Shown: piece after piece, positions 2 through 48,592 of the stretch
Position numbering within the stretch: the first letter of the stretch is position 1
How the letters are laid out: each line of letters begins with the position of its first letter
DNA from: Streptococcus toyakuensis
GTDB taxonomy: Bacteria > Bacillota > Bacilli > Lactobacillales > Streptococcaceae
NCBI RefSeq assembly: GCF_024346585.1
Contig: NZ_AP024523.1
Location: 1,001,001-1,065,000 of the forward strand
Length of the DNA: 64,000 bases
Direction: 5' to 3'
Program-made: the position numbers and the translations under genes
Notes under the pieces: generated by a model
What the model was told of the DNA's origin: nothing
Databases searched by the model: none
What the model saw: only the letters and a program-made list of their open reading frames with translations

Positions 2-250
2 AATAAGGCAGCTGCAGAATACAATGTTCCTGTGAAAGCAGCAGCAGGTGGCTATGGTGCTCACCGTGAAATGTTGCCAGAGTTTGATCTTGTTATCCTT
101 GCTCCTCAAGTGGCTTCAAACTTTGAAGATATGAAAGCAGAAACCGATAAACTCGGTATTAAACTTGCCAAGACAGAAGGCGCTCAATACATCAAATTAA
201 CCCGTGATGGAAAAGGTGCTCTTGCATTTGTACAAGCTCAATTCGATTAA
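2..250 (+). CDS. lacE: Lactose PTS EIICB component, C-terminal end (5' truncated by window)
   Basis: Partial gene. The reading frame is open from base 2 and ends in TAA at 248-250, giving about 82 residues. The sequence ([20 protein letters not shown], then an end in [10 protein letters not shown]) fits the end of the EIIB domain of a lactose/cellobiose-family PTS permease. LacE normally fuses a membrane EIIC domain to a cytoplasmic EIIB that passes phosphate from LacF (EIIA) to incoming lactose. The downstream 6-phospho-beta-galactosidase supports lactose over cellobiose. The phospho-cysteine of EIIB lies upstream of the window. The identification rests on recognition of the family and on synteny. 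Confidence 0.85.
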
Positions 251-375
251 CGATAGGGACTGTGAAACAGTCTCCTCTCGTTACGGAAATCGCTATGGCG
301 GATTTCCTAATCGCCTTGTTAATTCGTCGGTAAAAAGATATCGTTTTTACCTCCTCATGTCACAATTTGGTGACT
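251..375 (+). repeat. Structured repeat element (three hairpins) between lacE and lacG
   Basis: Three hairpins follow the lacE stop. H1 is 258-263/267-272 (GACTGT-GAA-ACAGTC). H2 is 285-307 (GGAAA outer stem with UUUCC, inner UCGC/GCGG, one bulged base on the 3' side). H3 is 329-336/344-351 (GGTAAAAA/TTTTTACC, loop GATATCG). CTCATGTCACAA follows at 354-365. The same order, spacing, loops and linkers recur on the minus strand at 21332-21472, with different but still paired stems. No coding function is evident. I do not recognise it as BOX, RUP or SPRITE. Confidence 0.7.
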
Positions 376-21299: not shown

Positions 21300-21322
21300 A
21301 ACCTTTGCTGTTTTTAACTTTA

Positions 21323-21494
21323 GTAACTTGAGATACATTTTGTATCCAAATGATTTGAAGAGTTGCGACATGAGTGAGTCGAATCGATAATATTCGACGA
21401 ATGAATTAGTAAGTCTACAAGGTTGACCGCCAAATAGCGGCAACCGTAGTAACTTGAGACGCGTTTCGTGTCCAAGTTACTTGTAGAGTTGAAC
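21323..21494 (-). repeat. Structured repeat element between acoB and acoC (second copy of the lacE-lacG element)
   Basis: Read on the minus strand it has H1 (21472-21458, GACACG-AAA-CGCGTC), H2 (21445-21421, GGUUG/CAACC outer stem, CCGC/GCGG inner stem, one bulged base), H3 (21398-21378, GTCGAAT/ATTCGAC, loop ATTATCG) and then CACTCATGTCGCAA. Order, the 12-base H1-H2 spacing and loop sequences match 251-375, but stem sequences differ with pairing kept. A second H1-like unit follows at 21346-21332. On the plus strand the two H1 units are 126 bases apart and read GTAACTTGA-stem-CCAA. Confidence 0.7.
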
Positions 21495-21496
21495 AC

Positions 21497-21693
21497 GGGC
21501 TAAAAGCTCGGAAAAAAGATAAATCTCCTTGGCTTCATCGAATCCATCGTCGATTTCCTATTTTTCAGTCGCTTTTAACGCCCTTAGTATCATTTAATTG
21601 AATTCGGACGGAGGTCTTCGAAAAAAAGATAGATTTCCTTGTGTTCATCGAACACATCGTCAATCTCCTATTTTTTCATTGCCCTCTTCGTCC
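21497..21693. repeat. Two tandem long stem-loop repeats ahead of acoC
   Basis: Copy 1 (21497-21583) and copy 2 (21606-21693) are 87 and 88 bases. Each folds end to end: GGGC.../...GCCC in copy 1 and GGACG.../...CGTCC in copy 2. Both have A-rich/T-rich inner arms (GAAAAAAGAT with CTATTTTTC) and a small apical hairpin, GGCTTC-ATC-GAATCC in copy 1 and GTGTTC-ATC-GAACAC in copy 2. Stem changes are partly compensatory. The type is not recognised. Confidence 0.65.
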
Positions 21694-21723
21694 TTAATAT
21701 CTTAGTATAGAATTGGAGAGGTC

Positions 21724-48393: not shown

Positions 48394-48589
48394 ATACTCA
48401 ATGAAAATCAAAGAGCAAACTAGGAAGCTAGCCACAGGTTGCTCAAAACACAGTTTTGAGGTTGTAGATAAGACTGACGAAGTCAGCTCAAAACACAGTT
48501 TTGAGGTTGTGGATAGAACTGACGAAGTCAGTAACCATATCTACAGCAAGCTGAAGCTGACGTGGTTTGAAGAGATTTTCGAAGAGTAT
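48394..48589 (-). repeat. BOX element (boxA-boxB-boxB-boxC)
   Basis: On the minus strand it begins ATACTCTTCGAAAATCTCTT (boxA) and ends CAAAGAG...TTTTCATTGAGTAT (boxC). Two 45-base boxB units lie between (48486-48530 and 48441-48485), differing at two or three positions. BOX elements are short stem-loop repeats of pneumococcus and close relatives. It fills the gap between the rexA stop and the next gene, ending three bases from the rexA stop. Confidence 0.95.
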
Positions 48590-48592
48590 AAA

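Follow-up and report, generated by a model that had tools for sequence, protein, structure and literature searches.

A three-hairpin element in lac and aco gene gaps of Streptococcus toyakuensis belongs to a genus-wide family of small interspersed non-coding elements

The three-hairpin element found in a lac and an aco gene gap of S. toyakuensis is a member of a genus-wide family of small interspersed non-coding elements of about 117 bp. Its architecture is H1-AC-H2-linker-H3-GTCR, in which the loops and linkers are conserved and the stems vary by compensating changes. Like miniature transposable elements of the MITE type, it is short, non-coding and interspersed over many loci. On balance, we lean towards reading it as a non-autonomous insertion element of the genus, the folded DNA of which is seen by the mobilising machinery. 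The features of the window, that is, the whole stretch of 64,000 nucleotides that was analysed, are listed in Table 1.

Table 1. Positions of the three-hairpin elements, their parts and the adjoining H0 repeats in the window
Feature	Position	Strand	Remarks
Three-hairpin element, lac copy	246..362	+	lacE-lacG gap, sense; covariance score 146 bits
H1 hairpin, lac copy	249..282	+	14 pairs, bulged T, one T.C mismatch
H2 hairpin, lac copy	285..307	+	single 3' bulge, CGCTA motif
H3 hairpin, lac copy	329..351	+	loop of 7 bases, GATATCG
Left 7-bp direct repeat, lac	239..245	+	CAATTCG, the final lacE codons
Right 7-bp repeat, lac	363..369	+	CAATTTG; CAATTCG in several relatives
Three-hairpin element, aco copy	21366..21484	-	antisense to E1 beta and E2 genes
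H1 hairpin, aco copy	21448..21481	-	shuffle-tested fold and alignment to lac
H2 hairpin, aco copy	21421..21445	-	shuffle-tested fold and alignment to lac
H3 hairpin, aco copy	21378..21398	-	loop ATTATCG
Left 7-bp direct repeat, aco	21485..21491	-	CAACTCT, the 3' end of the preceding repeat; within the region's least variable ten-base window (0.014)
Right 7-bp repeat, aco	21359..21365	-	CAACTCT
Remnant of a further H1 hairpin	21322..21355	-	diverges among orthologues at roughly the rate of four-fold sites
H0 structured repeat, copy 1	21484..21597	-	ends in GTTCAACTC
H0 structured repeat, copy 2	21593..21707	-	G000 1022593-1022707

The initial annotation described the same series of hairpins in both gaps. 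Direct reading and alignment of the two copies (lac, 249-376 on the plus strand; aco, 21481-21363 on the minus strand) bore this out, including H2 with its 3' bulge, H3, the 7-base loop ending in TATCG and the sequence CTCATGTC-R-CAA. Most of the 12-base linker described between H1 and H2 turned out to belong to the 3' arm of a longer H1, and the real linker is AC. The pairs proposed for H1 exist, but the hairpin extends outwards beyond them to 14 pairs and has a conserved bulged T; the outer arms (AACGA.AGG/CCT.TCGTT in lac, AGTAACTTG/CAAGTTACT in aco) contain five further compensatory pairs. Of the 117 positions aligned between the beginning of H1 and the end of CTCATGTCRCAA, 69 are identical in the two copies, and many of the remainder fall in complementary arms. 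Both copies fold better than their shuffled versions (z of -3.47 for lac and -5.05 for aco), with none of 200 shuffles equalling either of them. According to NCBIfam, the lac copy lies downstream of lacE (lactose-PTS IIB end), whose stop codon TAA is at 248-250 on the plus strand, and upstream of lacG; the genes flanking the aco copy encode E1 beta and E2 of a pyruvate-dehydrogenase-type (aco) complex. By its lacG gene (99%), the window falls near S. pseudopneumoniae and S. mitis among named loci. In some relatives (L082, L100 and L106), a compensatory change in H1 also converts the lacE stop codon from TAA to TGA (window 246-251).

The initial annotation further proposed a covarying element under selection for a folded nucleic acid, which a lack of further copies or of compensation in the stems would have contradicted. 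Neither was the case. A covariance model made from the two sequences matched the own genome seven times at E <= 0.003; two of these matches are the training copies and five are additional. The number ranged from 7 to 9 across searches. In an alignment of 134 matches with 127 distinct rows (A6), 94.4% of the stem cells pair and 28 of the 30 pairs change on both sides. Its covariation score was 0.806, against 0.189 in shuffled alignments (0/500) and 0.06 to 0.11 with slid partners. Alignment A6 came from 96 loci, and alignment A4 from 49, hand-picked to thin the lac and aco duplicates. Because A6 had been fitted to the structure, a second count was made on 61 copies with mutual identities below 80% that MAFFT had aligned blind to the structure, and here 87.1% of the cells were Watson-Crick pairs, compared with 20 to 31% for slid partners. 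Compensation was also visible within a single locus: among 26 haplotypes of the aco locus, pair (2,31) was T-A in 16 and C-G in 9, and pair (11,21) was C-G in 12 and T-A in 12. One candidate pairing, that of TTAC with the right-end GYAA, failed across copies upon inspection.

Selection for RNA folding is expected to tolerate G.U pairs and not A.C pairs. The numbers of G.T and A.C were 38 and 53 in the first set of 84 matches, 35 and 30 among 1766 cells of the 61 representatives, and 43 and 46 in the structure-blind alignment. The share of G.T in the sum of both was thus 0.54 (0.41-0.66) for the representatives and 0.48 (0.38-0.59) for the blind alignment, with 95% ranges that are optimistic because neither stem cells nor rows are independent. 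G.T made up 2.1% of the canonical cells in the element, versus 7.4% in 24 distinct tRNAs of the own genome, a one-sided comparison in that the ARAGORN brackets hold accepted pairs only and A.C goes unscored. The tolerance of G.U above A.C in helices, a trait of cis-regulatory RNAs, was therefore not found, and the constraint looks strand-symmetric, unlike that on an RNA helix. In addition, one lac copy (L093, 2214-2341) carries H1 as the exact reverse complement of that in its sister copies but is otherwise unchanged, the one such case among 180 copies compared. The lack of a G.T excess and this inversion point to DNA hairpins or cruciforms, or to copying from arm to arm, rather than to ordinary RNA selection. 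The choice between an RNA and a DNA hairpin, which the initial annotation had left undecided, thus shifts towards DNA or a strand-symmetric constraint, also in view of the conservation of the aco copy in antisense orientation (see below). The element therefore offers a test case of whether compensatory stem evolution always means RNA, as pairing is kept here without an RNA-like G.U excess.

The family is spread throughout the genus. The two-sequence model found matches in 29 of 36 genomes of the same genus and in 0 of 23 genomes of other genera, and with a model from 84 aligned matches and a cut-off of E <= 1e-4, the element was detected in 258 of the 284 genomes of Streptococcus species. In a sample of 295 genomes of the order, 42 genomes of the genus and one other genome matched; copy numbers per genome from this search and from that of the 284 genomes are to be read as "at least". 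The one other genome (G422), which is 1.4 Mb in size and belongs to another family, had a single match (E of 2.3e-6), by chance or by transfer. Both operon gaps given in the initial annotation are real, but the element is not confined to two metabolic operons, being an interspersed repeat found in about two dozen gene gaps of the sample. Despite the presence of matches in more than nine-tenths of the species genomes, between housekeeping genes at the loci inspected, no family of Rfam 15 matched, either for the window at gathering scores or for the lac and aco regions at permissive E-values. The lac query gave no match in phages, the aco copy had no match in plasmids, and a strict query of IMG/VR with the exact pattern returned 0 matches. 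In the own genome, a composite array at 1636972-1637193 (L005) reads, upon inspection, H1-H2-H3, H2-H3 and H3 alone; since the later units have no H1, units can shrink from the 5' side.

We then considered the ends of the element. The 3' end is GTCR, mostly followed by YAAY, and at some loci an equal 7-mer lies three bases 5' of H1 (CAATTCG at lac, CAACTCT at aco, TAACTGG at L031 and TAATCTG at L051). After comparison of the end 7-mers in 54 rows, 12 rows agreed at 6 or 7 of the 7 bases, against 6.5% in shuffled pairings, and 42 rows had no good end repeat. The 12 good rows comprise aco (3), lac (2), the 5' side of metK (4), obg (1), and L196 and L052, both out of register; the groEL locus in L051 is one additional good case outside these rows. 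A target-site duplication is not secure because the good repeats come from few independent loci (about six). Hence, the 7-bp YAAYNNN repeat exists at a few loci, and most loci lack it or have it in a decayed form. Inspection of the 54 rows revealed no terminal inverted repeats, the 5' end (YA-H1) and the 3' end (..GTCR) being non-complementary. Head-to-tail arrays of [7-mer-element] with three units each were found in L037, L038, L039 and L047, and the junctions in L037 and L038 read GTCA|CAATTCG|ATTAACG.

Empty sites were examined at the lac locus. Of 70 lacG loci from named Streptococcus, 41 contained the element in the gap preceding the gene, 13 of them with at least two matches, and at 12 other lacG loci with a recognisable lacE end the gap was only 82 to 90 nt. 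Empty alleles read CTCAATTTGAAGAATAAG and occupied ones CTCAATTCG-element-CACAATTTGG. An extra hairpin at 385-431 of the window, between the element and lacG, is present in element-free loci as well; therefore, a structured spacer probably stood between lacE and lacG already before the insertion. As for the enzyme, a Y1 transposase (PF01797) was the sole candidate tested, and its distribution did not track the copy number of the element. It was rejected as a partner, as it is absent from G019, G024, G025, G029, G031 and G032, all of which have copies of the element.

A second structured repeat, H0, adjoins the upstream side of the aco copy and of two other copies in the own genome (L004 and L007), 2 to 16 nt away. 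H0 is about 115 nt long (..AAAATAGGAAA..TTTATCTTTTT..GTTCAAYTC) and shows compensatory change at 20 of 34 predicted pairs in 12 copies. It has 19 matches in the own genome, is present in 34 of 36 genomes of the same genus and matched in 6 of 19 genera sampled, more weakly in the five other genera. Genomes without a match to the two-sequence three-hairpin model had H0 counts of 0, 0, 1, 2, 3, 10 and 11, versus 7 to 61 in the others (p 1e-4). A phage query with the aco region matched by its H0 repeat only, in 11 phage records, for which the hosts listed include S. agalactiae and S. canis. H0 copies also occur at L057-L068, and at L259 an S. agalactiae prophage has one in the gap between two genes of its tail region.

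The placement of the element relative to genes was determined at 47 loci, corresponding to the 54 end-repeat rows minus 13 (second units and aco or lac duplicates) plus 6. Relative to the element, the flanking ORFs were ++ at 31 loci, +- at 8, -- at 4 and -+ at 3, and one locus had no upstream ORF; hence, at 39 of the 46 loci with an upstream gene the element has the same sense as that gene. H1 begins exactly 7 nt past a stop codon in 15 of the 46 rows with an upstream ORF (10 genes), and at these loci the stop codon is the first three bases of the left boundary. When same-strand gaps were grouped by gene, in our own grouping into 19 groups (obg, whose downstream neighbour varies, and prfC are outside it), 17 of 19 were in the sense orientation (expected 54%, p 0.001) and 8 of 19 were at a stop codon, compared with 5% expected (p 2e-6). 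The expectation was derived from 107 gaps in the window and 17 further loci, with mechanically called ORFs and any YAAY site counted as usable. The two antisense cases include the conserved aco copy. The excess at stop codons over the available YAAY sites indicates targeting or strong selection, and this boundary makes it testable how small repeats enter operons without damage. The upstream genes identified with NCBIfam included grpE, groEL, ruvA, pheS, prfC, argS, nrdE, parE, obgE, pyrF, pyrB, carA and dnaK, and, below the curated cut-off, genes for a mannose-type PTS IIAB and PDH E1 alpha; downstream partners, metK among them, were assigned by eye. In the pyrB-carA and carA-carB gaps (L054 and L036), the element stands beside repeated GTCG..CAGAGAGGCGAC..AATAGAAAGG-like motifs, which we take to resemble PyrR-binding sites.

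Conservation at a fixed locus was measured at aco in ten-base windows, using 29 species and 189 pairs with an acoB four-fold divergence above 0.4. The thirteen windows of the element diverged by 0.01 to 0.27, ten of them by less than 0.2, versus 0.34 to 0.59, the level of four-fold sites, in the six windows directly downstream (60 bases, the H1 remnant included), the last two of which cover less than half of the pairs. The 26 bases beyond diverged by 0.21 to 0.36. The least divergent ten bases of the region are the left boundary CAACTCTACA (0.014). On the upstream side the flank is the H0 repeat, which is itself partly conserved and so provides no neutral control. Neutral decay alone was rejected at aco because of the drifting downstream flank. 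The conservation of this copy in antisense orientation implies a role at the level of the host for which the sense RNA is not required. At lac, the element diverged by 0.069 versus 0.396 at the four-fold sites of lacG (37 loci), and the spacer was also low; these analyses were made without L111, L118, L121, L131 and L146, and one of them without all multi-unit loci as well. The lac locus is therefore a weak test, as the whole gap is conserved. Element and gene divergence correlated weakly (0.37 and 0.25), and some close relatives differed mostly in H1, with clustered changes. Copies at the same locus seem to exchange H1 variants with neighbouring H1 copies, and divergence at one locus is thus no simple clock.

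For the insertion element that we favour, the following course may be envisaged. The element would have spread as DNA through an enzyme supplied in trans, which would recognise the folded palindromes and join them to YAAY targets. Stop codons (TAAY) could then be safe and frequent landing sites on the sense strand, and strand-symmetric pairing would reflect DNA hairpins or cruciforms. The spread of the family, its strand-symmetric covariation, the empty lac gaps, the arrays, the end repeats, the placement in sense and at stop codons and the conservation at aco are counted in favour, as is the exact inversion of H1 in L093, which is what a DNA hairpin event would do. At some loci, the inserted copy would later have been retained for a host role in the gene gap. 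The conservation at fixed loci speaks against this interpretation, in that it is not expected of a purely selfish element. Also weighing against it are the small number of loci with good end repeats, the absence of terminal inverted repeats in the rows inspected, the misfit of the Y1 transposase distribution and the apparent exchange of H1 variants. A related proposal, which we consider quite improbable, is a genus-wide DNA-hairpin recombination system. Here, an unrecognised streptococcal recombinase would insert, excise and stack folded three-hairpin modules at YAAYNNN with gene stop codons within operons as docking points, would also mobilise H0, which has the same CAAYTC end and is co-distributed, and copies would be domesticated as operon spacers. 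In either case, the mobilising enzyme is a defined target.

The main rival to the insertion element is action in cis as RNA. The hairpins would then work within the mRNA that joins co-transcribed genes, by affecting its processing or stability, by attenuation, or through coupling to termination at the adjacent upstream stop codon, and copies would have spread by old duplication. The predominance of the sense orientation, the fixed distance of H1 from stop codons, the conservation and compensatory changes within one locus, and the position of the gaps in housekeeping operons all agree with it. We nevertheless find it unlikely, because G.T is not commoner than A.C, the aco copy is conserved while antisense to both genes, and the flanking genes share no common function. 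Regulatory signals were not clearly in excess of shuffles: promoter-like sites numbered 2 at aco versus 2.0 in shuffles and 4 at lac versus 1.8 (sd 1.5), and terminator-like sites 0 versus 0.7 and 1 versus 0.6, respectively. A reverse-strand promoter reading of the conserved loop and tail (TTGCGA-17-GATAAT) was dropped, with 2 sites against a shuffled mean of 2.0. Structure could also persist without selection, if template switching between arms during replication maintained the palindromes and covariation arose by mutation. Covariation without a G.T excess, the exact H1 inversion and the clustered H1 changes between close relatives would all follow from this. However, template switching would not protect the loops and linkers CGCTA, CTTACTA, TATCG and GTCG, which are conserved across copies less than 80% alike, and the unit is conserved at aco while the adjoining H1 remnant drifts. 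Moreover, the clustered changes can be explained by exchange with the neighbouring H1 remnant, and a single inversion was found. We regard this explanation as highly improbable.

The motif could already have been described, as the ScRE or sanguinis-hairpin of Weinberg 2010 or as the S. suis modules boxE and boxF, which seems doubtful to us. ScRE and sanguinis-hairpin are listed for Streptococcus in a table of PMC2864571, with no Rfam accession and a "?" in the first column; ScRE may be the same motif. According to PMC3049150, the mean sizes of boxE and boxF are 115 and 133 nt, near those of H0 and the three-hairpin element, but both are said to enclose boxB modules, and the authors note that they did not search other species thoroughly de novo. 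Literature searches gave no paper that we recognised as describing the element, the comparison with ScRE, sanguinis-hairpin and boxE/boxF being by description only, and its novelty is conditional on these being different.

Among known repeats, BOX of S. pneumoniae and S. mitis and the S. suis BOX-type modules are likewise small, modular, structured intergenic repeats (PMC3049150, PMC2828477) with tandem modules, retained at many loci, but BOX differs by boxA and boxC ends with terminal inverted repeats. The GTAG and CGTC REPs and their RAYTs are comparable in that they are short palindromes following genes, for the most part where the neighbouring ORFs are unidirectional or convergent, and the GTAG type is thought to move as folded single-stranded DNA, while for the CGTC type no transposase is known (PMC3733652). 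REPs are single hairpins of 20 to 40 bp with a tetranucleotide tag, mostly in head-to-head dimers, whereas the present element combines three different hairpins, forms head-to-tail arrays and is bounded by YAAY; on inspection, its 3' tail CTCA(C/T)GTCG contains CGTC in part of the copies only. The string "Firmicut" is absent from the text of that article, and "streptococc" occurs twice. The repeats bcr1 to bcr3 of the Bacillus cereus group are also group-specific and MITE-like, lie in UTRs and operon gaps and are partly transcribed (PMC3446304). SPRITE, an 18-bp duplex with a long U-tract, does not by its description fit the three-hairpin element, which has no T-tract, and RUP is a 107-bp sequence. 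Integron attC sites and the ends of IS200/IS605 work as folded DNA with conserved bulges and variable complementary arms, and arrays arise from repeated insertion. The present element differs from them in that no cassette genes were seen at it and the presence of Y1 does not follow its copies. That the element is not BOX, as the initial annotation held, is supported: a BOX consensus had at least 60 matches in the own genome, where 40 of 92 candidates were scored, and among the matches listed none was at the eight three-hairpin places. One of its matches, at 48394-48590 on the minus strand of the window, is presumably a BOX element in two pieces.
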